Both the position numbers and the translations under genes were made by a program. The notes under the pieces are model-generated. The model searched no databases and was not told where the DNA came from. It worked only from the letters and a program-made list of their open reading frames with translations. Below, in pieces: positions 42,297-58,394 of a stretch of 64,000 bases of DNA. Within the stretch, counting starts at the first letter, position 1, and each line of letters opens with the position of its first letter. This stretch comes from Microvirga soli (lineage in GTDB: Bacteria > Pseudomonadota > Alphaproteobacteria > Rhizobiales > Beijerinckiaceae): NCBI RefSeq assembly GCF_016734765.1, contig NZ_JAERQE010000020.1, positions 1 through 64,000 on the forward strand, written 5' to 3'.

Positions 42297-43322
42297 TCAG
42301 GTCACAGTTCGGTTCGTCGCAAGTGCATCCTTGACCGCGTGCCAAGCCGGTTTTCTTCGGATCGCACCATCGAAAAGCAGCGGCCGCTGCGGAGCGCCGT
42401 CGGGCCGAGGTCGGAAGCCATTCAGCCAAGTTCGGTCGTCGGACAGCCCCCATGTGCTTACGGCGAGGACCTCGGCCTCGTCGAGGACGAGATCGAGATA
42501 GGCTCGGTAAGTTTCGGCCACGATGGTATCGCGCTGCTTCCGGTCTCGGGGGCAGAGGTGATCCGACACGTCCATTTCGGTGATCATGACGCTCAGGCCC
42601 ATGGCCCGAACCTCGCGAAGGAAGGCTCGAAGCTCCTGATGGTCCCTGGGCTGCTCCAGGGCGGTCAGGTGAGACTGGATGCCGAGGCAAGCGATCGGGG
42701 TGCCTCTGGCTTTTTCCCGCTCGAGCAGGGCGAGCATCTGTCGGCGCTTCTGCTCGGCCGCTGGTGAGGTGTATTCGAGCCCCATTTCGTTGAGAACGAG
42801 AACGGCCCTCGGGTCCAGGGATGCGGCTTCGCGAAAGGCGGTTTCGATATAATCGGGACCAAAGGCCGCGGCGAAGCGTGTTTCCCGCAAACCATTTCCC
42901 CGCCCGTGGGCAGGTTCCAGCGGCTCGTTCACCACATCCCAGGAATGCATCTGCCCGGCATATCGTGTCACCGTTGCTCTCAGGTGCTCCAGTGCGGCTT
43001 CCCGGAAGCGATTGTCGGCCGCATTCCGAAGGGCTGATGGAATGGCTTCATGCCACCAAAGGGTGTGCCCATGAAGGGCCAGACTATTGTCGGATGCAAA
43101 GGACACCAAGCCATCGGCGGACGCGTAGTCAGGGAGTTCCGGAACCTGGCATATGGCGTCCCATTTCATCTCGTATTCTGACGTAACTATAGAACACTCA
43201 CGAAGAATTGCCCGGGTGAGAGGTTGCGATAGAAGATGGGAGGTGCAAAGAGCGGTGCCGAAAAGCAGGCCATTTTGAGCAGCAGCGCTCGACAAGCTGC
43301 TCTTCCTTGGCCCATGGTGCAT
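42297..43322 (-). CDS. glycoside hydrolase family 10 (endo-1,4-beta-xylanase-like)
   Basis: 341 residues from ATG 43322 (GGAGAGG upstream). GH10 barrel landmarks: EYEMKWDAICQVPELPDYAS, then HGHTLWWHEAIPS. The acid/base Glu lies in HSWDVVNEPLEPAHG and the nucleophile in VMITEMDVSDH, then STWGLSDDRTWLN. No binding module. The N-terminus is only weakly hydrophobic, so export is not certain. It cleaves beta-1,4-linked xylan-like or related glycans. Its neighbours are polysaccharide-synthesis and control genes, so it may trim the cell's own polymer, as BcsZ does in cellulose systems. Confidence 0.9.
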   Translation of the reverse strand: MHHGPRKSSLSSAAAQNGLLFGTALCTSHLLSQPLTRAILRECSIVTSEYEMKWDAICQVPELPDYASADGLVSFASDNSLALHGHTLWWHEAIPSALRNAADNRFREAALEHLRATVTRYAGQMHSWDVVNEPLEPAHGRGNGLRETRFAAAFGPDYIETAFREAASLDPRAVLVLNEMGLEYTSPAAEQKRRQMLALLEREKARGTPIACLGIQSHLTALEQPRDHQELRAFLREVRAMGLSVMITEMDVSDHLCPRDRKQRDTIVAETYRAYLDLVLDEAEVLAVSTWGLSDDRTWLNGFRPRPDGAPQRPLLFDGAIRRKPAWHAVKDALATNRTVT

Positions 43323-43391
43323 TTCATTCCTCTCCTTGAATGATATCACAGAAAACTTCCGTCCAACACGATCCCGCTATAGACCCCATCG

Positions 43392-45386
43392 ATGAAGATC
43401 CGCCACATCCTGTTGATCCTGACGGCATTCCTCGGCGCTGCTTTGCTGGTTGCCGTCGCGTTCCAGATTCGTGACGAACTCCTCGGATATCAGACGGCGG
43501 AAAGGATGGTGGCGTCGAATACGGTACGGGAGCGGCTTCTGCTTGGAACGGAAGCTCTCGCGAATGAGCGCAGCCAGACATACGTGCTGCTGATCGGGCA
43601 GAGGAACGAGGCCGGTGGTATTGCGGAACTCCGCGACGTGCGGCGACAGGTGGACGACCTGCTGAACGCAGCCGAGAACGAGATTACAGCCACCCAGGCG
43701 TCCCTTAGCAACACCAACAACAGCCTCGCAACCGTGTCGCGCATCCGTCAGGAAATCGGGACCCTGCGGCAGCAGGCAGATCAGTCTCTCGGACTTGCAG
43801 AGGGCACAAGAGGGGATCAGTTCGCCCCGCGTTGGTTCCAAGAGGCCAATCGCCTCGTGGAGGAGTTGCAATCGTCCCGGATGACCATTCTGCAGCGGGA
43901 GAGGCCGCTCGACCCGGTTCTCAGAACCGAGGCTAATCTGAGAGCATTTGGTGCCATCCTGAGTGAGAGCATCGCCCGAAACCAGGCCTTGATGAGCCGA
44001 GCCCTCGAGAATTCGTCCGGAGTCGGAGGATTTGAGATTGACGCAATTAGTCAGAATGCCGGTCGTGCGGCACTGGCTTGGGAACTCATAGACGGCCAAA
44101 TGACTGTGCCGTTAAGCGAGGGCGTCAAGGACGTTGTTTCAAGGACCCATGAGAACTACAGCTCGACCTTCGCGCCGCTTCAAAGGTCCTTGCTTGCGGC
44201 GCTTATTGGGAAGGTGCCGCCCACGCTGGCTCCCGCTGAATGGTATGACCTGACCGGGCGGACGCTGAGCAACATCGCTCTGATGCAGCGGGAACTCCTT
44301 GGCAGTACGCGGGAACGGCTTGAGGCTGAGCTCAGACGAACTCAACGGTCGCTAACCCTGTGGTCGGCCCTGCTCCTGCTGGGGGCTGCCGCCGTTCTCA
44401 CGAGCATCCTGGTCGTGCGCCGAAGGGTGGTTCGGCCTCTGGAAGGCCTTAGTCAGGCCATGCTCAGGCTGGCCGACAATGACCTGGAGATTCCCCTGCC
44501 GCGTCTCGCCCGGGCTGACGAGATCGGTGAAATGAACGATGCGCTTCGGGTCTTCAAGGCCAATGCCATTCAGCGGCAGAGGACACAGAACGAAAAGCAG
44601 GTGCTCCATGCCCGCCTTCGTGAAGCCTATAGCCAGCTTCAGAAGGATCTGGAGGCCGCAGCCGTGATCCAGCAGACGATGCTGCCCCTGTCCTCGCGGA
44701 TCGACGGAGTGGAGTATCACGGCCTGTTCCGCCCATCGAGCCTCATCGCCGGCGACACCTATAACGTGGTGCGACGCACAGACGGCGCTGTTGGGTTCTT
44801 CCAGGTCGATGTCGCCGGCCATGGAGCGGCCGCCGCGCTGGTGTCGGTTGCCTGCCACCATGCCCTTTCGCAGGCCATCCTAACTCGGACGCAAGGTACG
44901 CCCCTGGAGGAGATCGCCGTCCAGATTAACGATGAATGGCCGGAGGATCTGCCGTACTTCACGATGATCTTAGGAGAGATCGATTCCCGTTCGCAGCGCG
45001 CGAGCATTGTCCAGGCGGGGCATCCTTCGCCGCTGGTGATCCGTTCCAATGGCGCTGTCGAGATGATAGGCGAGGGCGGATTTCCCGTCGGGATGCTCCC
45101 TGCTGCGTCTTACGAAAGGCTTGAGTTCGATCTCGGGCCCGGCGATCGGCTCTTCATCTACTCTGACGGGCTTGTCGAGGCTGAAGATCAGGACGGCGAG
45201 CAATTTTCTGAGGCTCGCTTGCGCACCCTCGTGCACGACACTGCCGGGGAGCCAAGCTCCATGCTGCTGGGCAAGCTCGATGATGTCTTGCGGAACTGGC
45301 GGGGCTCTGAAACCCTGGACGATGACTTGAGCGTTCTCATGCTGGAACGCTTAGCCGAAAGGATCCCTGCGAATGCTGTCCACTGA
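43392..45386 (+). CDS. membrane-bound PP2C/SpoIIE-type serine phosphatase with HAMP domain
   Basis: 664 residues. TM1 spans about 5-25. A periplasmic helical sensor fills 30-320 and TM2 is about 322-342 (ALLLLGAAAVLTSILVV). HAMP covers about 343-395, a coiled linker 395-425 ends EAAAVIQQTMLP, and then comes the PP2C domain. Metal-site residues lie in LIAGDTYNVV, QVDVAGHGAAAALVS, IYSDGLVEAED and LDDDLSVLML. It should dephosphorylate a STAS antagonist in response to an envelope signal. The gene overlaps the STAS gene by 14 bases, so coupling is tight. RsbU-like in logic, but with its own sensor. Confidence 0.92.
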   Translation: MKIRHILLILTAFLGAALLVAVAFQIRDELLGYQTAERMVASNTVRERLLLGTEALANERSQTYVLLIGQRNEAGGIAELRDVRRQVDDLLNAAENEITATQASLSNTNNSLATVSRIRQEIGTLRQQADQSLGLAEGTRGDQFAPRWFQEANRLVEELQSSRMTILQRERPLDPVLRTEANLRAFGAILSESIARNQALMSRALENSSGVGGFEIDAISQNAGRAALAWELIDGQMTVPLSEGVKDVVSRTHENYSSTFAPLQRSLLAALIGKVPPTLAPAEWYDLTGRTLSNIALMQRELLGSTRERLEAELRRTQRSLTLWSALLLLGAAAVLTSILVVRRRVVRPLEGLSQAMLRLADNDLEIPLPRLARADEIGEMNDALRVFKANAIQRQRTQNEKQVLHARLREAYSQLQKDLEAAAVIQQTMLPLSSRIDGVEYHGLFRPSSLIAGDTYNVVRRTDGAVGFFQVDVAGHGAAAALVSVACHHALSQAILTRTQGTPLEEIAVQINDEWPEDLPYFTMILGEIDSRSQRASIVQAGHPSPLVIRSNGAVEMIGEGGFPVGMLPAASYERLEFDLGPGDRLFIYSDGLVEAEDQDGEQFSEARLRTLVHDTAGEPSSMLLGKLDDVLRNWRGSETLDDDLSVLMLERLAERIPANAVH

Positions 45387-45708
45387 TCTACGCGATAATG
45401 TTCTCGTCGTCCGAGTTGAGGAAAAGCGGATCGATGCCAGCAAGGCTCCGAAATTCAAGGATGAGATAACACGGTGCATCGAGGCCGGACAGAACCAGAT
45501 CGTCCTCGACCTGAGCCAAGTCGACTTCATCGACAGCTCCGGCCTTGGGGCTCTCGTCACCTGCCTCAAGCGTCTCGGCCCAAAGGGGAGTCTTGCGGTT
45601 GCAGGCGCCACAGGCGCTGTCAGCCGCCTGTTTACCCTGACCCGCATGGACCGGGTCTTTGCCCTTCACCCGAATGTGGACACTGCGGTCGAACAGCTTT
45701 CCGCCTGA
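45373..45708 (+). CDS. STAS-domain anti-sigma-factor antagonist (RsbV/SpoIIAA-like), copy 1
   Basis: 111 residues, single STAS domain. QIVLDLSQVDFIDSSGLGAL contains the phospho-acceptor serine (S56 of D-S-S-G). Unphosphorylated STAS proteins bind and neutralise an RsbW-type kinase or another partner. Start inside the 3' end of the phosphatase gene and the kinase gene 32 bases further on make a three-gene phosphatase-antagonist-kinase operon. Confidence 0.92.
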   Translation: MLSTDLRDNVLVVRVEEKRIDASKAPKFKDEITRCIEAGQNQIVLDLSQVDFIDSSGLGALVTCLKRLGPKGSLAVAGATGAVSRLFTLTRMDRVFALHPNVDTAVEQLSA

Positions 45709-45740
45709 TCCCTCGCCGCCAGAGCGCAGAAAGAGCCACG

Positions 45741-46184
45741 ATGGTCTCCTCCATCAGCCTCTCCATCGACAGCGACCTCGACAAGGTGTCGCTCCTCGCC
45801 CGGGCCGTTCGTGCCTTATGCGAGGACCTGCTCAGCCCAGACGACCAGGATGCCGTTGAACTCAGCCTCGTCGAGGCCATCAACAATGTCATCAAGCACG
45901 GCTACCATGGGGAGCGTGGCAAGGACGTCCAGGTCGCGGTCGGGCTTCAGGCCGACCAGGTTATGATCGAGGTCATCGATCATGCTCCCCCCATGCCGAC
46001 CCAGGTCCTGGACAACGCCTCGGAGGATCGTTTCGACTTCGACGAAACCGATCTTGCCGATATCCCCGAGGGGGGTATGGGTCTGGCCCTCATCCGCATG
46101 AACATGGATGAGGTCGAGTATCACTCAAGCGAATCCGAGAACCGCCTGCGCATGGTCAAGCGGATTGCCCCACTCTCGCGATAA
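45741..46184 (+). CDS. RsbW-like serine kinase/anti-sigma factor (HATPase_c_2)
   Basis: 147 residues, single GHKL ATPase domain. The N-box is ELSLVEAINNVIKHGY (E45, N48/N49), the G1 region is MIEVIDHAPPMPTQVL, and the G2 box is EGGMGLALIRMNMDEVEYH. Such kinases phosphorylate the STAS antagonist and sequester an alternative sigma factor or another client. The client is not encoded next to it. G1 has Ala in place of the usual first Gly, which is common in this subfamily. Ribosome site AGAAAGAG. Confidence 0.92.
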   Translation: MVSSISLSIDSDLDKVSLLARAVRALCEDLLSPDDQDAVELSLVEAINNVIKHGYHGERGKDVQVAVGLQADQVMIEVIDHAPPMPTQVLDNASEDRFDFDETDLADIPEGGMGLALIRMNMDEVEYHSSESENRLRMVKRIAPLSR

Positions 46185-46192
46185 GCCCTGAC

Positions 46193-46657
46193 CTACGGTG
46201 CGGAGGCGACGGTTGCGATCCTGTCCTGCAGGGAAGGGAAGGCGACCGCCGTTGCTCCCAGCGCTGAGACGAGAACGGGCGTGACCTCGCCTGTCTGGCG
46301 CTCCATGTCGGCAATCACCCTCTGGGCCCGCGTCAGGCCGTCCTCGGGCCTCAGAATGCTGAGTTGAACGGCAGACGCGAGTGATGTCAGCAAAGCCGCT
46401 CGCGAGGCTGCGGCATTCGGCTCGGCGGAATACATCTCTTCCGACCGTTGAAGGTTGGCCTTCACCCTTGCCTCGACCGCAGGCGAAATGCTCGGAGGAG
46501 CATTCCGCTGGCGAGCGAGCTCGGTCGAAACGCGACCCTGGATCCGCTCCTCCGTATCCAGGGACTCGAGATAGATGATGATTCCCGTCGAGATCGTCAG
46601 TGCCGCAATGAAGGTGATCTGCCCTCGGGCCTTGAGGAGGCCTTCTCTGAAAGTCAA
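46193..46657 (-). CDS. hypothetical membrane-anchored protein
   Basis: 154 residues. One membrane helix at about 13-30 (ITFIAALTISTGIIIYL), then a soluble helical region with Glu/Arg/Ala-rich segments (VEARVKANLQRSEEMYSAEP) and a hydrophobic tail. No family recognised. Topology suggests an N-in, periplasm-facing protein. It is convergent with the RsbW-like gene, eight bases apart. Confidence 0.6.
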   Translation of the reverse strand: MTFREGLLKARGQITFIAALTISTGIIIYLESLDTEERIQGRVSTELARQRNAPPSISPAVEARVKANLQRSEEMYSAEPNAAASRAALLTSLASAVQLSILRPEDGLTRAQRVIADMERQTGEVTPVLVSALGATAVAFPSLQDRIATVASAP

Positions 46658-46974
46658 CGTTTAGCCTCCGGTAAGCTTGGTACGCGATACGACACGGCTC
46701 TGCCGTGAGAAGAGGCCCGAAACCTAATCGCCCTGCACCTGACAAGGCAAGAGAGATGCGGTCGCCAGAGATGGGCAGGCGAGCATCCCTTGTCCTTTTG
46801 AAACATAGTAACATTTATTCTCCGGTCACAATGCCATGATCCGGCAGCGGCATTCTGGTGCGATCCTCCTCAAATCGGGTTAATCCGTTAGGGACGAGTC
46901 GTCGCCCAGCCGTTGGAGAGTTCTCTGAACTCAGGTGAGGCGGAAGGGTCGGACAGATCGAGTGAAGGAGGCCT
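46658..46974. other. intergenic region between divergent genes
   Basis: 317 bases holding the promoters of the hypothetical membrane protein (minus) and PIG-L (plus) genes. There is an AT-rich patch near 46795-46830. I could not define a promoter, repeat or RNA with confidence. Confidence 0.35.
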
Positions 46975-47772
46975 GTGAGCGGTCGTATGTTTGGACCATC
47001 CCTTTTCATCCAACCGCATTACGATGACGTTCCGCTCTCCTGCGGTGGGACCTTGGCCCTCCTGGCCGAGGGCGGGCATGAGCCACGCATGGTCACGGTG
47101 TTCGCCAGCGAACTGGTCGATGAGATGATTGGAGAGTTCGCCGCCTGGAAACATGAGCGGTGGCAGGTCAAGGATGCGGAGCAGGTCTTGGCCGTTCGCC
47201 GTGCCGAGGACGCGGAGGCTGCCCGGGCTCTTGGCTCCTCCGTCCGCTGGCTCGGGTTGCCGGATGCCATCTACCGCGGACAGCGCTACAAGTCCGATCC
47301 CGAGCTTTTCGGGGCCTTGAAGGCCGAAGAGCTGGAACTCGCCGCTCATCTGGCAGAGGAAATGCGCCAGCTGCCGGAATGGCGTAGCGACATGCAGGTC
47401 TTTGTTCCCTTGGGCATTGGCTTACACGTAGACCATCAGCTGGTGTTCGAGACCGGCCGACACCTCGCATCCGCTGGAGTCAAGGTCTATGCTTATGAGG
47501 ATTGCCCCTATGCGATCCACACACCTGCCGGAGTCGAGGCACGACTGACGACGCTGGGTGATGCGGTTGGCGAACCTGTCATTGTGCCCATCGCCAAGAC
47601 CCTGCAGAAACGCCTCGATTCGATCGCCTGCTACCGATCCCAGGTTCCTGTGATCTTCCGGTTCACATCGGATTTCAGGGCTGCCGTTACAAACTTTGCG
47701 CTAAAGACGGGCGGCGATGCCGGACCCGCTGAGCGATTCTGGCCTGTTCATGCGTATGGTGGCTCGAGATGA
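46975..47772 (+). CDS. PIG-L/LmbE-family N-acetyl-sugar deacetylase
   Basis: 265 residues from GTG 46975 (AAGGAGG upstream; ATG 46987 is possible). Zinc motifs are FIQPHYDDVPLSCGG (the usual PHPDD has Tyr for Pro here) and GIGLHVDHQLVFE (HxDH). PIG-L enzymes remove acetyl groups from N-acetylglucosamine-containing molecules. No signal peptide, so cytosolic. It overlaps the second STAS gene by four bases (ATGA), which implies translational coupling between a sugar-modifying enzyme and a partner-switch protein. Confidence 0.88.
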   Translation: MSGRMFGPSLFIQPHYDDVPLSCGGTLALLAEGGHEPRMVTVFASELVDEMIGEFAAWKHERWQVKDAEQVLAVRRAEDAEAARALGSSVRWLGLPDAIYRGQRYKSDPELFGALKAEELELAAHLAEEMRQLPEWRSDMQVFVPLGIGLHVDHQLVFETGRHLASAGVKVYAYEDCPYAIHTPAGVEARLTTLGDAVGEPVIVPIAKTLQKRLDSIACYRSQVPVIFRFTSDFRAAVTNFALKTGGDAGPAERFWPVHAYGGSR

Positions 47773-48098
47773 TTGTTGAAATGGAACACACGGAGCAGGG
47801 GATTGCCCTGGCTCGCCTGTCAGGGCGGTTGGATGCCGCCGCAGCTCCTCGTGTCCTGGCTCACCTGAAGGATGCCGTGGCTGACGGGAAAAGCCGTCTT
47901 GCCGTTGACTTGTCCGAAGTCTCGTTCATCGACAGCACCGGGCTCGGCACCCTGGTGTCCGGCCTCAAGGCTGCTCGCAAAGCCGAGGGCGATCTTCGCC
48001 TCGTCGCGCCTAGCCCCCAGGCGCAGCGTCTGCTGCGCCTCACGACCCTCGATCGCGTTTTCGTCACGTCCGACACGCTTGATGAGGTATGGGCTTAA
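47769..48098 (+). CDS. STAS-domain antagonist, copy 2
   Basis: 109 residues. SRLAVDLSEVSFIDSTGLGT places a threonine (T57) where copy 1 has the phospho-serine, as in RsbS-like stressosome proteins or alternative antagonists. About one third to one half of positions match copy 1. It is coupled to PIG-L by an ATGA overlap, and its stop overlaps the convergent glycosyltransferase stop by four bases. Confidence 0.92.
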   Translation: MIVEMEHTEQGIALARLSGRLDAAAAPRVLAHLKDAVADGKSRLAVDLSEVSFIDSTGLGTLVSGLKAARKAEGDLRLVAPSPQAQRLLRLTTLDRVFVTSDTLDEVWA

Positions 48099-49948
48099 GA
48101 CGCCTGCGACGGCAGAGCGCCTTCAACAATAGCGGCCTCGAATTCAGGATCAGGCTGCCAATAGGCCGCCCGGATTACCGGGAGCATCGACAGGGCGTTG
48201 CTGAATCCCCAGAGGGTGTTGGCGATCATCGCCCCAAGCGTATAGCCCTCGCGTCCCGTCCCATAGGCCAGCCAGCCCCAGGCGAGACCCGCCATGGTGA
48301 CGACGACCAAGGCAATCTGCCACCTGACGAGACGACCGTAGGTTCCGACCTGCCTGTCCTTGGGCGTGACTGGAAACGAGATCTTTTTTCCTCGCACGAC
48401 GGCCCATAACGCCTGCATATTCAGCGGGAACATGGCGAGGTACCAGGCGCGGCCCTTGGCATTCGAGTTGCCCCACATGGCGACGAGCTGGGAAAGCTCG
48501 TTGAGCAGCAGGAACGGCGCGATATGCACGAAGAAATCGAGCGAGTAGCCTGAGACCGGAGCGACCCCAGAGAACAGGAAAACTATGGGTGAAACGAGGA
48601 AGATGATGTTCCAGAGTGGAGCCAGGTACGAGTAGAAGGTCGACCCGTACATGAGCTTCTGCGGCAGCGTCAGTCCGCGCCGGAACAGAGGGTTGTCATG
48701 GGCGAGAATATCCAGGGTGCCGCCGGCATATTTGAAGCGCTGGATCGTCCAGCTGAGCAGGTCGTTGGGCGACAGCATCCTTGCCTGAACGACCGGGTGC
48801 AGAACCGACTTCCAACCGCGCTCGCGGTCGCTGTGCAGGACGATGGACGTGTAGATGTCCTCGGAAACGTGGAACTTGTAGGGCTGGAACTCTTCTTCCA
48901 GGGCGCTCTGCCAGCGCATTACATCGCTGATGGAATCGGTGATAGCCTGCTCGCCGGTCAGTTGGCGGGCGGCCTTCTCGTTGCGCCCAGCTGCGGCGGC
49001 GACCTGATCGGACCATTGGCGAAGTGCCGCCTCCATGACCGCTTCGCGCCGATGGATCGAACCCGCGCCGCAACAGAAGCTCGCATTCGCCCAGTTGCGC
49101 CGGCGCAAAATCACGTCGAAGAAAAGCTGTGGATCGTTTGCGAACGGATCCTCCCCGACCTGAACCGGCCCGAACACGCGCTCGAAAGCTCGTCCAATGC
49201 CCCTCCCGAAACCACCGAGCCGGCGTCCGAGTGCGGCTGGCAGCGGTATTCCGGGTGGAATGTCGTAGAACCAGTGCGGAGTCTGCACCCAGGCAACCTT
49301 CGGATCCCGGAAATAGCCGAGCGTCTCTTCTAGGAAGGTAGGGAACGGATGCATGTCGGCATCGCAGATCAGGATGAAATCCCCGGACGTGGACGCCATG
49401 GCATTTCTGAGGTTGCCGGCCTTGAAGCCCACGTTGTCGGAGCGGGTGAGATAATTCACCCCTTCTTCCCGCGCGACCGCTTCCATGGCCGGGCGCTTGC
49501 CGTCGTCGAGGACGTGAACCCGCAGATCGATCGGGTGAGGATAGGTGAGCTTCTTGGCGGCCTGCAGACCGACGCGAACGAGTTCAGGATCCTCGCTGTA
49601 GGTGGCGAAGAAAACGTCGACGGACACAGGCCTGTCGGTCACGTCCGCATCGTCGGTGCAATCGCGGACAGTCACCGGAAGAGGAGCGCGCACGGGAGAT
49701 TGGGCACTCCAGAGATTTGCCGTGAAGAGAACAAGGCCGATGAAGGAGCCCGTCTCGGCGATCAGAAGAGGGATCGAGAACCAGAGAGCATCGTAGTTGA
49801 TGGAGTAGAACCATCGCCAGCCGATATACCACGTGCCGAAGACGAGGCTCGCCGTGCAGAGAAACTGCCACACTGTTTCATGCCAGGGCGAATACGGAAG
49901 CGGAGTCCAGGGCGTCTGACTCTGAAATCGGGACAAGGGACGGGACAA
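48095..49948 (-). CDS. processive GT2 glycosyltransferase, cellulose-synthase-like, without PilZ domain
   Basis: 617 residues. Two N-terminal helices (about 33-52, 55-80), then the GT2 domain. Substrate-binding Asp lies at 148/149 in RVHVLDDGKR and metal DxD at 196-198 in LICDADMHPF. The base Asp is 364 in HVSEDIYTS. The Q-x-x-R-W acceptor motif appears as QRFKY at 403-407. At least four C-terminal helices follow. BcsA-type enzymes are about 250 residues longer because of PilZ; none is present, so c-di-GMP control via PilZ is not expected. It probably polymerises and extrudes a beta-glycan. The product is unknown. Confidence 0.9.
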   Translation of the reverse strand: MSRPLSRFQSQTPWTPLPYSPWHETVWQFLCTASLVFGTWYIGWRWFYSINYDALWFSIPLLIAETGSFIGLVLFTANLWSAQSPVRAPLPVTVRDCTDDADVTDRPVSVDVFFATYSEDPELVRVGLQAAKKLTYPHPIDLRVHVLDDGKRPAMEAVAREEGVNYLTRSDNVGFKAGNLRNAMASTSGDFILICDADMHPFPTFLEETLGYFRDPKVAWVQTPHWFYDIPPGIPLPAALGRRLGGFGRGIGRAFERVFGPVQVGEDPFANDPQLFFDVILRRRNWANASFCCGAGSIHRREAVMEAALRQWSDQVAAAAGRNEKAARQLTGEQAITDSISDVMRWQSALEEEFQPYKFHVSEDIYTSIVLHSDRERGWKSVLHPVVQARMLSPNDLLSWTIQRFKYAGGTLDILAHDNPLFRRGLTLPQKLMYGSTFYSYLAPLWNIIFLVSPIVFLFSGVAPVSGYSLDFFVHIAPFLLLNELSQLVAMWGNSNAKGRAWYLAMFPLNMQALWAVVRGKKISFPVTPKDRQVGTYGRLVRWQIALVVVTMAGLAWGWLAYGTGREGYTLGAMIANTLWGFSNALSMLPVIRAAYWQPDPEFEAAIVEGALPSQAS

Positions 49949-50132
49949 GAAAGACGGCTCCGGGAAGATAGGCTGGAGGCAAGATGCCTCTGGTCTGGGG
50001 ATAAGAATAGGCTATTTTCTAGGAAAGAAAGTTAGGTGCGGCGAAGCCCTCGCCAGATCCGATCTTTACCTGCCATAAGGGCAAAATCCAGATACTGCCC
50101 CTCCTGAATTTGTGATTCGAGATTCTGAGACG

Positions 50133-53100
50133 ATGCATAAGCGTAGGCTTGCCCTTCGTATCCGGTTCGCAAGCCTCGTTTTCCTCTGTGGGTTCGGGCT
50201 GGCCGCATCACCCGCTCTGGCCCAATCGGCCCAGGAGGTCGTGGAGCAGGCCAGGCAGGCTGCTTCCACTAATGACAACCGTGAAGCCGCTCGTCTCTTC
50301 GAGCAGGCCCTTACACTTGCTCCCGAACGCCGAAACGAACTCCTGCTCGAATATGCAGATCAAGTTGCCTATGCAGGCCGCCCGGCCGATGCCGTGCCGC
50401 TTTACCGTGAGCGCCTGGCAGATCCGGCCCTCGACACTACCAACCGTGAAAGGGCCGACCGGGGCCTGGCCTTCGCTCTCCTGTGGAGCAGCCGGTTCCA
50501 GGAGGCGATTCCCGCCTGGGAGGCTCGTCTCAGGGTTGATTCCGGCAGTGACGAGGCCAGGAAGGCTTTGTCCGATGCCTTGGTCGGAGCAGCCCGACAG
50601 GCAGGCGAACGCTCCGACAATGCAAATGCCAGGACGCTTTTCGGCCGGGCCATCGAGACCGCCTCGCAACGCCGCCATGAGCTGCTGCCGGAACTGGCCG
50701 ATCAAACCGCCTATGCTGGCCAGCCAGCGCAGGCCGTGCCGCTCTATCAGGAAGCCCTGCGAGATGGCAGCCGCTCCGAGGATCAGCAGCGCCGCCTGAG
50801 GCGAGGGCTGGCCTTTGCGCTGCTATGGAGCGGCCAGTTTCCGGCTGCTGTGGCGGCCCTTGAGGATGTGCTCCGGGCAGTTCCCGATGACGCTCAGGTC
50901 CGGCAGGGGCTGGCGGAAGCCCGAGCCGGCGCCGAGAGGAGCCGCGCACAGGCGGTGCAGCCTTCGCAGCCCATCCCATCTCCAACGCAACCCCAAGCAC
51001 CCGCCGCTCCAGCCTCGCCGGCCGATGCGGCGATCGCGGCGGCCCGCGAGGCTGCCGGCCGCGGCGCTAACAAGGAGGCGGCTTCACTTTTCGAGCGGGC
51101 GATTTCGCTCGATCCCTCAAAGCGCGGCCAGATCGCTCGGGAATATGCCGACCAGCTCGCTTTTTCCGGTGAGCCGGCCAGAGCGGTTCCGGTCTATCGC
51201 GAGGTTCTCGCCCGTCGGGATCTCTCGTCCACCGAGCGTCAGCAGACGGGCCGCTCGCTGGCCTTCGCGCTCCTGTGGAGCAGCAAGTTCGAGCAGGCAA
51301 TCGAGGCCTGGGGCGGCATCTTGCAGGCCGACCGGAGCGATGCAGAGGCCCGCAAGACGCTCTCCGACGCCTATGTGGGTGCCGCCCGTCAATCAGCTGA
51401 GCGCACACGCAATGCCGATGCCGCTTCCTTCTTCCGAAGAGCCATCGAGACCGCTCCGCAGCGCCGCCAGGAACTCCTGCCGGAATACGCCGATCAGACA
51501 GCCTACTCCGGCAATCCGGCCGGTGCGGTCCCGCTCTATCGCGAGGCGCTGCGCGATGGCCAGCGCCCCGAGGCGGAGCGCCGGCGCGTGCGGCGCGGCC
51601 TTGCCTTCGCGCTCCTCTGGAGCAACCAGTTCCGCGAGGCTATCGCCGCCTGGCAGCCGCTGTTCCGAGAAAATCCACGCGACGAGGAGGCCCGCAAGGC
51701 GTTCTCGGATGCCCTCGTCGGTGCCGCGCGCCAGGCCGCAGGGCAGACCCGCAACGCGGAAGCGGTGAACCTCTTCGAGCGCGCCTTGACCGTCATGCCG
51801 GGGCGTCGCCGGGAACTGTTGCGGGAATACGCCGAGCAGATGCTCTATGCGGGCCAGCCGTTGCGGGCGATTCCGCTTTTCCAGGAGGTGCTTCAGCGCG
51901 CTGACCTGACCGCCCAGGAGCGGCGGGACGCCCAACTCGGCCTCGCCCGTGCGTTGGCCTGGAGCGGTCAGCAGAAGCTTGCAATCCCGGTCTTCAGCGA
52001 AATCCTCGCGTCGAACGCAAACGATGTCGATGCCCTTATCGGCCGCGGCAACGCCCTCAACGACATTACTGAGCACAGGGCGGCCCTAGCCGATTTCGAG
52101 GTAGTGCTCTCACTCCAGCCCAGCAATGTGGAAGCGATCCGCGGCGCTGCGACCGCCGAGAGGTCGATGGGCTTGCCGCGGGCGGCCCTGGCCCGGCTCG
52201 AGCCTCTTCTGGCCAGCGGCGACCAGAATCCCGCCACGCTCTTCATCGCCGCTCAGGCGCGGCGGGAGATGGGGCGCCCGGATCTGTCCGAGGACTATGC
52301 GAAGGCTGTTCTGGCGCAGAAGCCTGGTGACGCAGGCGCCCAGGCGCTGCTCGATCAGCTCTATCAAGAACGCCGGCCCCTGACGCGCATCGAGAGTTGG
52401 TACGCCCGCCGCTCGGACGACCTCGCGATCTGGTCGCTGCAGGGCTCCCACGAACTGACCTTCAATGACGGCTTGACGAAGCTCGGCCCTCAGGCTCGAT
52501 TTCTGCGCTTGCGGGGCGGCGATTTTCCGAGCGTCGACATCGCCAGCATCGGCATCGCGGGTCAGCACAGGTTCGGCGATCATGTCGAGCTCAAGTCATC
52601 GATCTTCCTGAACGTTGAAGACGAGTCTCAACGCAATCTTTCCGACGGGGACGACGATCAGGACGTCACGCTGACATACGACACGATTCTAAGCCTCATT
52701 CCATCCGATCTGCTCCGCTTCGACCTGAACCTGACGCGGCGCTACGCGGATGAGAACACGTATTCGATCGTGAAAGATATCCTGGCGAACGATTTCGGCC
52801 TCAAGGCGATCGTGACGCCGGACAATGCGACTCGCTTTGCCGCTCAGGCGATCTACAGCCACTACTCCGATGGCAATGAGCGCGCCTGGGGTCAGGTCGA
52901 ATTCGCCAAGCGTTTCACGGCCAATCCCTATCTCTGGCTGGGCGCACGCTACACGGCCTTCCAGTTCGCGGAGGTGGTCGATAACGGCTACTGGAATCCC
53001 AAGCGCTACCAGTCCCTGGAAGCAAGCGTCCATTTCTACGGCCCCCTGGCCGAGAGATGGTGGTTCGATCTTCAGGGGGCTGCCGGATATGGCTGGAGCG

Positions 53101-53303
53101 AGCCCGGCGAAGGAGGCTTCGTGTCTTACGCCGCCGCGCGCCTGAACTACGATTTCACCTCGCAGGCGACCTTTGCCCTCTACGCAAGCCACCTCGTCTC
53201 CTACGCACGCTCGTCCGAAAACGATGGCAACTTCGATACCGGAGAGGACGACGAGCCGTTCAGCCGCTGGTCCTTGGGTGGGGAGTTGAGGATCCGGTGG
53301 TAG
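50133..53303 (+). CDS. large TPR plus outer-membrane barrel protein (polysaccharide export, BcsC/PgaA-like)
   Basis: About 1,056 residues. A signal peptide ends at ASPALAQS. Residues about 30-760 are TPR solenoid with a roughly 115-residue unit repeated five times; the landmark GLAFALLWS recurs at 50464, 50809, 51256 and 51598 and as a variant near 51950. A Pro/Ala/Gln linker lies at about 275-300. From about residue 765 the sequence is barrel-like (RIESWYARRSDDLAIWSLQG onward) and ends WSLGGELRIRW with a terminal aromatic. PgaA, BcsC and AlgK/AlgE systems use this plan to carry polymer across the outer membrane. Divergent from the glycosyltransferase gene. Confidence 0.85.
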   Translation: MHKRRLALRIRFASLVFLCGFGLAASPALAQSAQEVVEQARQAASTNDNREAARLFEQALTLAPERRNELLLEYADQVAYAGRPADAVPLYRERLADPALDTTNRERADRGLAFALLWSSRFQEAIPAWEARLRVDSGSDEARKALSDALVGAARQAGERSDNANARTLFGRAIETASQRRHELLPELADQTAYAGQPAQAVPLYQEALRDGSRSEDQQRRLRRGLAFALLWSGQFPAAVAALEDVLRAVPDDAQVRQGLAEARAGAERSRAQAVQPSQPIPSPTQPQAPAAPASPADAAIAAAREAAGRGANKEAASLFERAISLDPSKRGQIAREYADQLAFSGEPARAVPVYREVLARRDLSSTERQQTGRSLAFALLWSSKFEQAIEAWGGILQADRSDAEARKTLSDAYVGAARQSAERTRNADAASFFRRAIETAPQRRQELLPEYADQTAYSGNPAGAVPLYREALRDGQRPEAERRRVRRGLAFALLWSNQFREAIAAWQPLFRENPRDEEARKAFSDALVGAARQAAGQTRNAEAVNLFERALTVMPGRRRELLREYAEQMLYAGQPLRAIPLFQEVLQRADLTAQERRDAQLGLARALAWSGQQKLAIPVFSEILASNANDVDALIGRGNALNDITEHRAALADFEVVLSLQPSNVEAIRGAATAERSMGLPRAALARLEPLLASGDQNPATLFIAAQARREMGRPDLSEDYAKAVLAQKPGDAGAQALLDQLYQERRPLTRIESWYARRSDDLAIWSLQGSHELTFNDGLTKLGPQARFLRLRGGDFPSVDIASIGIAGQHRFGDHVELKSSIFLNVEDESQRNLSDGDDDQDVTLTYDTILSLIPSDLLRFDLNLTRRYADENTYSIVKDILANDFGLKAIVTPDNATRFAAQAIYSHYSDGNERAWGQVEFAKRFTANPYLWLGARYTAFQFAEVVDNGYWNPKRYQSLEASVHFYGPLAERWWFDLQGAAGYGWSEPGEGGFVSYAAARLNYDFTSQATFALYASHLVSYARSSENDGNFDTGEDDEPFSRWSLGGELRIRW

Positions 53304-56472: not shown

Positions 56473-57639
56473 ATGCACGCCAAGGGCGGCCGCAGTACAG
56501 TGATCGATTTCTGGCGCGGACTCGTCCTCGTCATCATCTTCGTGAATCACATTCCGGGGAACATCCTCGAGCATCTGACGCCGCGAAACTACGGTTTCTC
56601 CGACGCGGCCGAAGCCTTCGTGTTCATCTCGGGCCTCTCTGTTGCGCTCGTCTACTATCCACGGCTACCAAAGGGTGATGTTCTCGGCGTCATCAGGCGC
56701 TGCTTCCGGCGGTCGTTCGAACTCTACCGCATGCATCTTATCATGACCGGCGCGGCAGTAGCTTTGTTCTCTGTCGGCTATGTGGCCAGCAACGATGTCG
56801 GGATGCTTGAGGTTCATGGCCGCGGCGCCGTGTTCGACGATACGGCGCGCGGCATTACGGGTATTCTCCTGCTCGGCCATCAGCTGGGTTATTTCAACAT
56901 CCTGCCCCTCTATATCGCCCTGATGCTGTGGGCACCGGTTGCGATGATCCTCATGCGGATCCATGTCGCTTTGGCCGCCGCAGTATCGATCGGTATCTAT
57001 GCACTGGCGCGTGCCGACGTGCTGGCGATCCCGAGCTGGCCCGAGCCGGGGCGGTGGTTCTTCAACCCCTTCGCTTGGCAGCTTCTGTTCACGCTCGGGA
57101 TCTTCACGGGGGCTTTTCTTGTTCGCAGAGAGGTGGCCTACCAGCGCTACGCCTTCGCAGGAGCGGTAGCCTTCCTCGCCGTATCGACGGTCGCTATGAC
57201 CGACGCCTTCGGCCTCTATCCGAACCTGCTTTGGAGCACCTTCGTCAATTTCGACCTCGTCAAGAGCGACCTCGGGCTTGGTCGTCTGCTTCACTTCCTG
57301 GCGCTTGCCTATGTGGTGACCCAGCTTCGGATGGGGCAGGTGCTGGAAAAGACCACATTCGGAGCCGAGATGGCGCGCCTCGGGCGCAACGCCCTGCCGG
57401 TCTTCGCAGTCGGTTCTGTCCTGAGTGCCGCCGGAGAGGTCATGATGACGCTGGCAGCCGTCAAGTCCTCCGCTAGTCCGCATGTGGTGGGTATGGTATT
57501 TACCCTCTTCGGAATTCTCGCACTTCTCGGACTGGCACGATATCTCGAATGGAAAAAGAAAGGCTCGACCGCTCCCAAGCTGGAGCGCGCCGGACAATCT
57601 GGCCTTGTGTCGGTTTCACCCGGGCAACTTCCGCGTTAG
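56473..57639 (+). CDS. opgC: OpgC-family membrane acyltransferase
   Basis: 388 residues, ten or so membrane helices. STVIDFWRGLVLVIIFVNHI has the arginine and histidine of the OpgC/acyltransferase-3-like active site. Then NYGFSDAAEAFVFISGLSVA, ILPLYIALMLWAPVAMILM and LGRNALPVFAVGSVLSAAGE are conserved in OpgC_C. OpgC adds succinyl groups to osmoregulated periplasmic glucans. It overlaps or abuts an SGNH hydrolase gene, a pairing common in glycan O-acylation. Whether its target is a periplasmic glucan or the exopolysaccharide encoded upstream is open. Confidence 0.88.
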   Translation: MHAKGGRSTVIDFWRGLVLVIIFVNHIPGNILEHLTPRNYGFSDAAEAFVFISGLSVALVYYPRLPKGDVLGVIRRCFRRSFELYRMHLIMTGAAVALFSVGYVASNDVGMLEVHGRGAVFDDTARGITGILLLGHQLGYFNILPLYIALMLWAPVAMILMRIHVALAAAVSIGIYALARADVLAIPSWPEPGRWFFNPFAWQLLFTLGIFTGAFLVRREVAYQRYAFAGAVAFLAVSTVAMTDAFGLYPNLLWSTFVNFDLVKSDLGLGRLLHFLALAYVVTQLRMGQVLEKTTFGAEMARLGRNALPVFAVGSVLSAAGEVMMTLAAVKSSASPHVVGMVFTLFGILALLGLARYLEWKKKGSTAPKLERAGQSGLVSVSPGQLPR

Positions 57640-58394
57640 TGTCCCTCCTGGTCATCGGCATGAGCTATTCCGCCTTGTCGGACGAGGCGGGCTGTTCGGG
57701 TGCCAAGCCGATTTTGTCGGCCCAAGCTAAGATGGAGCGTCTTGCTTCAAGGCTGAAGAAGAGCGAGCCTGTTCGGATCCTGGCCATCGGATCCTCCTCC
57801 ACCCAGGGCATCGGAGCATCCTCCCCGGCCTTTTCCTATCCGGTCCAGCTCCAAGCGGATCTCACCCGTATCTGGAAGGGCACAGTCGTCATCGAGAATG
57901 CTGGAATAGGCGGGGAGACGATTCCCGAGACCGTCGCACGCCTTGAGGCTGCTCTCCTCAAGGCCGACAAACCGGATCTCGTGATCTGGCAGGTGGGCAC
58001 GAACGACGCCGTCATGGGTGGGGACGAGGGGCAGTTCTCCGACTTTCTGCGGCAGGGGATCGATGCCGCGCAGGAAGTCGGCGTCGAGGTCCTTCTTGTC
58101 GACCAGCAGTACTTCCCGGCCATCAAGGACCTTGGGCGTTATGAGCGCTTTGTCCGCCTTGTCGGGACCGCTGGAGCCGCCGAGCAGGTCCCCGTCTTCT
58201 CTCGCTACAGGCTGATGAAGGCTTGGGGCGAAAGATCACCAGATGTCCTAGGCTCCATGCTGTCGAGCGACGGCTTTCACATGGGTGACCGAGGGTATGA
58301 CTGCTTGGCGCACCTGCTGGCTGACAGCCTCCGTGCCATGGTGGCGCCTGCTGAGGCGCCGAACCGCGCCGTTGCGGCCGCCCCACGTCCGTAG
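57549..58394 (+). CDS. SGNH/GDSL-type hydrolase, exported
   Basis: Up to 281 residues. Block I: RILAIGSSSTQGIGASSPAF with the nucleophile Ser. Block II Gly in NAGIGGETIPETVARLE, block III in IWQVGTNDAVMGGD, block V in SSDGFHMGDRGYDCLAHLLA (D-x-x-H variant). Start uncertain: ATG 57549 lies inside opgC (91-base overlap), while GTG 57639 shares its G with the opgC TAG (TAGTG). The hydrophobic stretch ALVSLLVIGMSYSALS looks like the export signal. An esterase or O-acyltransferase acting on the same acylated glycan as OpgC is plausible. Confidence 0.82.
   Translation: MEKERLDRSQAGARRTIWPCVGFTRATSALVSLLVIGMSYSALSDEAGCSGAKPILSAQAKMERLASRLKKSEPVRILAIGSSSTQGIGASSPAFSYPVQLQADLTRIWKGTVVIENAGIGGETIPETVARLEAALLKADKPDLVIWQVGTNDAVMGGDEGQFSDFLRQGIDAAQEVGVEVLLVDQQYFPAIKDLGRYERFVRLVGTAGAAEQVPVFSRYRLMKAWGERSPDVLGSMLSSDGFHMGDRGYDCLAHLLADSLRAMVAPAEAPNRAVAAAPRP

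Follow-up and report, generated by a model that had tools for sequence, protein, structure and literature searches.

A PilZ-less polysaccharide synthase linked to a SpoIIE-STAS-RsbW partner switch in Microvirga soli and other bacteria

The window analyzed in this study, a stretch of 64,000 nucleotides from Microvirga soli (contig NZ_JAERQE010000020.1), harbored a locus combining a GT2 polysaccharide synthase with genes for a partner switch (Table 1). All genes named in the initial annotation were found by Pfam at checked coordinates, although its list was incomplete, the 154-aa stub having been overlooked. The locus is not a single operon, as GT2 and GH10 lie on the opposite strand. The suggested coupling of STAS2 to PIG-L was seen as a 4-base overlap between the PIG-L stop and the STAS2 start. 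The genome contained only one SpoIIE match, located <5 kb from GT2, so that the closeness of the two goes beyond chance.

Table 1. Features of the synthase locus, with positions in the 64,000-nucleotide window.
Feature	Position	Strand	Evidence
GH10 glycoside hydrolase	42297-43349	-	PF00331 1.6e-73 (Pfam)
HAMP-linked SpoIIE (PP2C-type) phosphatase, membrane sensor	43392-45386	+	PF07228 4.3e-39, PF00672
STAS1, anti-sigma-antagonist-like, DSSG phospho-acceptor motif	45373-45708	+	PF01740 6.4e-21
RsbW/SpoIIAB-like serine kinase (HATPase_c_2)	45741-46184	+	PF13581 1e-25
154-aa membrane stub, TTG start, DUF3131-family N-terminal segment without glycosidase-like domain	46193-46657	-	N-terminus likeness
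PIG-L (LmbE-like) de-N-acetylase, accessory	46975-47772	+	PF02585 1.1e-13
STAS2, DSTG acceptor motif, coupled to PIG-L	47769-48098	+	PF01740 2.6e-20
BcsA-like GT2 synthase without PilZ	48095-49948	-	PF00535/PF13641; BcsA structures matched (phmmer)
TPR protein with C-terminal outer-membrane beta-barrel, PgaA/BcsC-like exporter (predicted)	50112-53303	+	TPR Pfam matches, AlphaFold

SpoIIE, STAS1, and RsbW (the trio) comprise a phosphatase, an acceptor-bearing STAS protein, and a GHKL kinase with active-site motifs, as identified by Pfam and motif alignment, and thus constitute a partner switch. The SpoIIE catalytic motifs were common to the carriers, with SDG changed to SDA in L116, and the STAS acceptor Ser/Thr was kept in 34 of 34 aligned rows, representing 33 loci (L130, included as a row, is the same locus as L044). 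RsbW matched the solved RsbW structure 6m36 (1.8e-5); across carriers its N-box was kept and its G1 box was variable, being altered in Microvirga (DHAPP). The DSTG motif of STAS2 was kept in all nine relatives having this gene. The sensor input differed by locus, with a HAMP membrane sensor in the window, receiver domains in other loci, and genes for hybrid kinase, globin, H-NOX, or GAF proteins near the trio elsewhere. In L158 and L160, the end of the STAS gene ran into the GT2 gene, with stop and start overlapping.

The lack of PilZ stated in the initial annotation was borne out, as no Pfam match was found in the window GT2 while the PilZ model detected this domain in the other synthase of the genome (L150). 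The GT2 of the minimal locus L126 was also without PilZ by Pfam. However, one of the two BcsA-like controls scanned by Pfam (L132) lacked it as well, and therefore PilZ absence alone is no marker of the GT2 clade. The locus resembles Bcs in having a processive-type GT2 with BcsA homology and the FxVTxK motif (FPVTPK, gating-loop-like) and, in some versions, a glycosidase and a TPR/barrel exporter. Besides the missing PilZ, it differs from Bcs in having QRFKY in place of QxxRW, a longer insert before the TED-like motif (54-58 aa, against 13 aa in the five BcsA-like controls, out of eight, that could be measured), a score below the cut-off of the CelA model TIGR03030 (228.5 bits, cut-off 699.1), and often a DUF3131 protein or stub after GT2. 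The insert was also found in Kapaibacterium L048, which has a related GT2 but no trio, indicating that it tracks the clade and not the switch. No family match for a BcsB partner was found by Pfam among the ten locus proteins scanned.

A lack of conserved linkage in relatives had been named beforehand as evidence against such a system; the trio accompanied the GT2 clade through six orders and two classes. Collected by GT2 similarity alone, the clade included Devosiaceae, Nitrospirillum, Paracoccus, Sphingobium, Pantoea, Salmonella, and Vibrio. The trio lay within approximately 10 kb of GT2 in 31 of 32 loci, compared with 0 of 20 BcsA-like control loci; this count excludes L095 (last 47 GT2 residues only, broken SpoIIE), L035 and L043 (contig ends), L050 (trio present), and L130. 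GT2 was present in 17 of 48 Microvirga genomes, and strong SpoIIE and RsbW genes (SpoIIE >130 bits and HATPase_c_2 >80 bits) were found in 17/17 of these versus 1/31 GT2-minus genomes. The single exception (G182) was not accepted as having this switch in the absence of GT2, since its genes (L096) lie in other surroundings and scored low with the locus profiles (SpoIIE 88, RsbW 45, and STAS 50 bits). Any SpoIIE above the cut-off was found in 5 of the 31 GT2-minus genomes, and none >130 bits in 30 of them. In the family of Devosia, a genus of the order Hyphomicrobiales like Microvirga, GT2 was found in 8 of 136 genomes and was joined by the trio in all eight.

Ten plasmid loci from two classes, picked by GT2 similarity alone (10 of 17 close records, with H10-H14, H16, and H17 left out), contained a complete trio in nine cases; the tenth had no STAS match and carried an IS66 element between RsbW and SpoIIE. 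By megablast, most of the Salmonella locus was found in 0 of 5426 E. coli genomes, with one 35-base match. In a phylum sample, GT2 was found in 14 of 398 genomes, and the 12 newly taken loci comprised five with the trio, five with STAS only, one with SpoIIE only (L153), and one on a cut contig. One family had only a STAS gene at GT2; because the sequence around STAS-only loci is short (4.6 to 16 kb), a kinase might be located further off. Distances of GT2 and the trio were correlated (r 0.76-0.84), which may reflect shared descent only. A separate tree did not include L128, whose GT2 is split over two frames. At related GT2 loci on the Rhodobacteraceae side, the trio was found in 0 of 37 (L048 and L129 included, short-contig loci left out). 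STAS occurred there only as a degenerate fusion, and such fusions were rejected as a working partner switch because acceptor residues were lost (15 of 38).

The smallest gene set was SpoIIE-STAS-RsbW-GT2 (L126, L127). The system outlined in the initial annotation was retained in its four-gene core, while PIG-L/STAS2, GH10, and the TPR barrel, which vary among loci, proved to be accessory. GH10 adjoined the trio in all 14 Microvirga loci with that flank, as well as in Devosia L044, Nitrospirillum, and L151, and was not seen in several other carrier loci. Of the 14 Microvirga relatives, nine had PIG-L, in each case accompanied by STAS2, and PIG-L/STAS2 was not recognized in Devosiaceae or Nitrospirillum; this pair was therefore rejected as part of the core. 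The stub had no Pfam match; its N-terminus, M(T/S)FR..L..AR..., is common to the DUF3131 proteins that come after GT2 elsewhere, and a stub was found at the same place in L044 and L122-L124. DUF3131 was a frequent extra partner of GT2, and its predicted fold resembles beta-1,2-glucanases, which would give this uncharacterized family a genomic place and a likely fold. In the AlphaFold model of the TPR protein (pLDDT 78, pTM 0.41), the C-terminal part, from residue 771 onward, is folded into 15 long beta strands; its fold search was dominated by TPR superhelices, with no match informative on the barrel. In contrast to Pga (PNAG), the TPR protein fell below the cut-off of the PgaA model TIGR03939 (4.6e-11, 41.7 bits, cut-off 366.65), and the deacetylase is of the PIG-L type, not PgaB. 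An OpgC gene (56473-57639) in the window, a possible further member of the locus, is preceded by genes for ATP12 and a carboxylase subunit, and OpgC was found in relatives where these genes also occur; in the enterobacterial loci and in Paracoccus L112, it was linked to the locus.

Synthase-dependent polysaccharides are usually regarded as controlled by c-di-GMP. The window locus is best read as one Microvirga version of a system whose core is a PilZ-less BcsA-like GT2 with a dedicated SpoIIE-STAS-RsbW switch, the further components, namely DUF3131 glycosidase-like proteins, acyltransferases, hydrolases, and an exporter, being gained or swapped in a lineage-specific manner. We infer that the trio controls the polymer and that STAS, as its output, contacts GT2. 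With moderate confidence, we propose that this is a widely distributed polysaccharide system of the synthase-dependent kind, equipped with a partner switch of its own, in which STAS probably acts at the synthase. More specifically, and tentatively, STAS might be a direct regulatory subunit of this synthase class, with its phospho-state, set by RsbW and SpoIIE, gating polymerization in place of c-di-GMP and PilZ. An input, here through the HAMP membrane sensor, would activate SpoIIE, which would remove the phosphate set on the STAS serine by RsbW. Dephosphorylated STAS would then act on the cytoplasmic face of the enzyme, opening the gating loop and taking the job done in BcsA by c-di-GMP-bound PilZ, and STAS2 would act as a similar switch on PIG-L.

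Co-inheritance would suit transcriptional control equally well. RsbW might hold an RpoH, RpoD, or ECF sigma factor encoded elsewhere until STAS frees it for transcription of the polysaccharide genes. The trio shows homology to known regulators of sigma factors, and Nostoc HmpUVW has been discussed as possibly targeting such factors (PMC6495340). However, a SigB/F/G-type factor above the TIGR02980 cut-off was found in 0 of 9 carriers, compared with 1 of 14 genomes of the control set (presumably B. subtilis). Other sigma types matched this model weakly in all nine genomes tested; RpoD, RpoH, and ECF factors are possible targets. No sigma gene appears in nine annotated plasmid-locus gene tables, which are incomplete by nature, and the five loci with STAS at GT2 and no RsbW within 4.6-16 kb fit a STAS output better. 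We consider such an anti-sigma output rather unlikely.

A switch that signals via a diguanylate cyclase or some other regulator, as exemplified by Pseudomonas SiaABCD and HsbRAD, appears improbable. It would raise c-di-GMP or free a partner, the synthase responding by an unknown route. SiaA is the best NCBIfam match of SpoIIE, and SiaABCD is described as working through c-di-GMP and the cyclase SiaD (PMC8457831); however, the match reached 74.6 bits against a cut-off of 700, and GT2 has no PilZ. No diguanylate cyclase was found by Pfam among the 16 window proteins scanned, and none is named in the nine plasmid tables, with an EAL protein at the L114 edge. It is very improbable that the trio serves general stress and was joined to GT2 by chance in a mobile island. 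The several plasmid copies and the patchy distribution would agree with this, but the linkage survives rearrangements, strand changes, and loss of other genes, is absent from the BcsA-like loci, and involves the only SpoIIE of the genome, a gene that most GT2-minus Microvirga genomes lack at comparable strength.

In the open-licence literature searched, we found no study of this system and no description of a partner-switch-linked GT2 polysaccharide system, a weak negative. SypE/SypA, suggested in the initial annotation as the nearest precedent, is a fair one, with HmpUVW of Nostoc and SiaABCD of Pseudomonas as further close systems. In the V. fischeri syp locus, SypA is described as a single-domain STAS output with a conserved serine, switched by a kinase and phosphatase, whose level of action is unknown (PMC4517449, PMC11112999). 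The present locus shares these features in a polysaccharide setting, although SypE unites in one protein the activities encoded here by separate SpoIIE and RsbW genes. HmpUVW likewise divides phosphatase, STAS, and kinase among separate proteins, and its STAS protein HmpV is described as the output, passing the signal to an effector not yet defined, with hormogonium motility and polysaccharide as the processes concerned (PMC6495340, PMC8256260); however, judging from its locus tag, hmpV does not sit with hmpU/W (PMC10581220), and the passages on HmpUVW describe no link to one synthase gene. SiaABCD shares biofilm control and a similar SpoIIE phosphatase, but its output is a diguanylate cyclase.

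In V. fischeri and Nostoc, the way in which STAS proteins control polysaccharide when no sigma factor is involved is unsettled, and a four-gene locus such as SpoIIE-STAS-RsbW-GT2 brings this question within reach of experiment. If STAS gates the synthase, the single-domain STAS proteins of polysaccharide loci (SypA, HmpV) would gain a kind of target, namely the synthase machinery itself. A whole synthase clade, in two classes and also on Enterobacterales plasmids, has a linked protein-phosphorylation switch in place of c-di-GMP. Accessory block 3b of Klebsiella pneumoniae, unstudied and listed with the same gene set in a population-genomic survey (PMC12974863), corresponds to the present system by gene names alone, and a possible role for this block is thereby suggested.

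The gene set that the initial annotation had placed at 42297-53303 was recovered in full, with the TPR protein carrying a barrel at its C-terminus. Additionally, we found a gene absent from that annotation, encoding a small membrane protein (the stub) between RsbW and PIG-L. According to the coordinates, the SpoIIE and STAS1 genes overlap by 14 bases and RsbW begins 32 bases beyond STAS1, while a 4-base overlap joins PIG-L to STAS2 and another joins STAS2 and GT2 at their 3' ends. Genes for an OpgC-type acyltransferase and a GDSL-like esterase lie 3 kb beyond the exporter gene, OpgC being separated from the locus by ATP12 and a carboxylase gene; at the Paracoccus locus L112 and in Enterobacterales, OpgC lies inside the system.

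Features of the window, in gene order, and of the compared loci (L-numbers)
Feature	Sequence	Coordinates	Strand	Remark
Whole locus	window	42297-53303
GH10	window		-
HAMP-SpoIIE	window		+
STAS1	window		+
RsbW	window		+
Stub	window	46193-46657	-	154-aa membrane protein; corresponds to a DUF3131 protein reduced to its N-terminal segment
PIG-L	window		+
STAS2	window		+
GT2	window		-
TPR protein	window		+
OpgC-type acyltransferase	window	56473-57639	+
GDSL-like esterase	window	57549-58394	+
STAS-nucleotidyltransferase-hexapeptide fusion	L054	7692-9185		degenerate STAS domain; upstream of a related GT2; 38 similar loci
Separate RsbW/STAS/SpoIIE set	L096	5257-15255		genome G182, without GT2
Second, PAS-linked SpoIIE	L042	3156-4706	-	Microvirga subterranea; ~6 kb from GT2
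Decayed copy	L095	10001-13349		Devosia sp. A8/3-2; GT2 end only, SpoIIE in pieces
SPOR-carrying version of stub	L114	10794-11297		Sphingobium

The best named relatives of the window GT2 were from Microvirga species (85-98%), and the protein matched the solved BcsA at 4e-35 and fell far under the CelA cut-off. As claimed previously, it gave no PilZ match; PilZ was detected in the second synthase of the same genome (L150). The FxVTxK motif is the gating loop of BcsA under PilZ control. It is retained as FPVTPK in the window GT2 and followed by 87 C-terminal residues, versus 187-266 in eight BcsA-like sequences, these controls being mixed as to PilZ (by Pfam on two, L150 has PilZ and L132 lacks it). 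The insert before a TED-like motif comprised 54-58 residues in all 23 GT2s accompanied by the trio of SpoIIE, STAS, and RsbW, 54 residues in the Kapaibacterium GT2, and 27-57 residues in 17 of 18 GT2s measured from the Rhodobacteraceae side; the stretch before this motif had 13 residues in the BcsA-like controls measured (five of eight). This insert tracks the clade, not the switch, and is a candidate docking place.

A genome scan by GT2 similarity alone yielded 64 loci: 16 from Microvirga, two from Devosia, and one each from Nitrospirillum and a Kapaibacterium MAG, the remaining 44 coming mostly from Rhodobacteraceae. The stub, RsbW, STAS1, SpoIIE, and GH10 genes were all present in the 14 Microvirga loci having that flank, and PIG-L and STAS2 were found in nine of these, never one alone; SpoIIE and GH10 were broken into pieces in L037. 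The Nitrospirillum locus (L066) carried genes for GT2, DUF3131, receiver-SpoIIE, STAS, RsbW, and GH10 consecutively on a single strand, most ends overlapping. GT2 occurred in 8/136 genomes of the Devosia family, all eight with the trio, and was split over two frames in L128. In the decayed Devosia copy (L095), decay of the synthase and of the switch seem to go hand in hand. Of the 30 plasmid matches listed, with 468 further records beyond the listing, 17 showed 52-59% identity and the next 33%. Ten of these 17 loci were examined (two each from Paracoccus and Pantoea, and one each from Sphingobium, SC52, Pseudooceanicola, Chimaeribacter, Vibrio, and Salmonella), the unannotated Vibrio locus (L118) by profile and Pfam, and nine carried SpoIIE, STAS, and RsbW. 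No STAS was detected at the Pantoea stewartii locus (L121), where RsbW and SpoIIE are separated by an IS66 element at the site of the STAS gene in relatives; the switch of this strain appears broken. The locus is on plasmid pDSJ10 of strain DC283, with opgC in two pieces.

The linkage proposed for the locus was upheld by a neighbourhood check, in which a single profile set, made from clade members, was applied to clade and control loci alike. Of the 32 clade loci (13 Microvirga, 8 Devosia family, 1 Nitrospirillum, and 10 plasmid), 31 had the trio within ~10 kb of GT2, versus none of 20 BcsA-like loci from the bacterial family of the window, and, by the same profiles and distance, none of 37 Rhodobacteraceae-side loci, including L048 (Kapaibacterium) and L129. 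Solitary SpoIIE-profile matches appeared among the 20 controls in L140 (46 bits) and L142 (31 bits), and among the 37 in L092 (20 bits) and L048 (58 bits, a histidine kinase by Pfam). A conserved system is well supported.

Within the genus, GT2 (E<=1e-40) was found in 17 of 48 genomes, which are kin and not 48 independent trials. All 17 had SpoIIE above 130 bits and a HATPase_c_2 protein above 80 bits, and SpoIIE lay within 5 kb of GT2 in 16, GT2 sitting at a contig end in the remaining genome. Among the 31 genomes without GT2, five had any SpoIIE above the cut-off and only G182 had both proteins strongly, its SpoIIE/RsbW genes (L096) standing in different gene surroundings. By eye, the large genes upstream of that set resemble a peptidase-ABC exporter. 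A second SpoIIE above 130 bits also occurs in G149, G152, and G154 of this genus, besides the PAS-linked one of L042.

The smallest version (L126) consisted of SpoIIE, STAS, RsbW, and GT2 on one strand, RsbW ending ~10 bases ahead of the GT2 frame, and L127 had the same arrangement with an inserted GAF/PAS gene. No DUF3131, GH10, or other family of the locus was found at either, and by eye the flanking genes appear unrelated. An evenly spread phylum sample of 398 genomes contained 14 with a clade GT2, namely 12 newly fetched, the window, and G212, whose locus (L129) has the degenerate fusion type. Five of the 12 had the trio (L151, L152, L155, L161, and L162), with L151 being a full Microvirga-like locus including TPR barrel and GH10; L153 had SpoIIE only, and the contig of L156 terminates at GT2. 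The other five (L154 and L157-L160; stretches of 4.6-16 kb) had STAS only, its stop overlapping the start of GT2 in L158 and L160 and one gene intervening in L154; given these short stretches, kinase or phosphatase genes may lie further away. SpoIIE matches elsewhere in these genomes were strong for G887 and G941, reached 72 bits for G938, and were ~35 bits for G842 and G1022. These five loci come from one family with genomes of ~2 Mb. The most constant neighbours of GT2 are thus STAS, followed by RsbW and SpoIIE.

On the Rhodobacteraceae side, a STAS-nucleotidyltransferase-hexapeptide fusion-like protein was encoded upstream of GT2 in 39/64 loci, and Pfam confirmed the three domains in all three fusions examined. 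The acceptor position was Ser/Thr in only 23 of 38 alignable fusions and the motif Asp was kept in one, so the fusion by itself does not amount to a functioning switch. In a GT2 tree of 50 rows, 16 Rhodobacteraceae-side GT2s formed a well-supported group, and the trio label changed 3 times versus 16.9 in shuffles, with deep forks not resolved.

In trio loci, the STAS acceptor Ser/Thr and motif Asp were present in all 34 rows (33 loci). SpoIIE motifs were conserved, with SDG changed to SDA in L116, as was the RsbW N-box; the G1 box was variable, with an altered DHAPP in Microvirga. The inputs varied, being HAMP-SpoIIE in Microvirga and Paracoccus (L112) and receiver-SpoIIE in Nitrospirillum, Vibrio, and L126, with hybrid kinase, H-NOX, globin, or GAF genes near the switch. 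A changing sensor above a constant trio and GT2 is the pattern that a dedicated switch would show. Our preferred reading is that STAS acts directly on the synthase, and the main rival is a transcriptional output. A SigB/F/G-type sigma factor exceeded the cut-off in none of nine carriers and in one of 14 control genomes, RpoD- and RpoH-sized proteins matching this model weakly. Across 18 loci picked to span lineages, GT2 distances correlated with those of STAS (r 0.79), RsbW (0.76), and SpoIIE (0.84), with 0/5000 shuffles as high, although shared descent alone could explain this correlation.

The locus is a variant of an already known kind of system, itself new. The level of action of V. fischeri SypA is undefined, and the protein is believed not to work as an anti-sigma antagonist (PMC11112999; PMC4517449), the effector of Nostoc HmpV is undefined (PMC6495340), and Anabaena all4160 is a STAS-glycosyltransferase fusion (PMC8256260). 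Klebsiella block 3b has the same gene set, listed in the available part of a 2026 population study without functional work (PMC12974863).

A full DUF3131 protein was recognised in 11 of the 32 loci, the stub in 17, and its SPOR-carrying version in one (L114); none of these was recognised in L126-L128. The predicted DUF3131 model (pLDDT 87) was nearest to putative glucoamylases, an endo-beta-1,2-glucanase, and the cyclisation domain of cyclic beta-1,2-glucan synthase (TM ~0.5-0.6), and a profile search retrieved the latter synthase domain at 2.3e-7 over a short stretch of ~90 residues. The N-terminal membrane segment survives loss of the rest of the DUF3131 protein and is therefore probably part of the synthase complex. 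The hydrolases differed among loci (GH10, GH16, and GH2), and the Devosia locus L044 encoded an adjoining protein with a CBM60 xylan-binding module.
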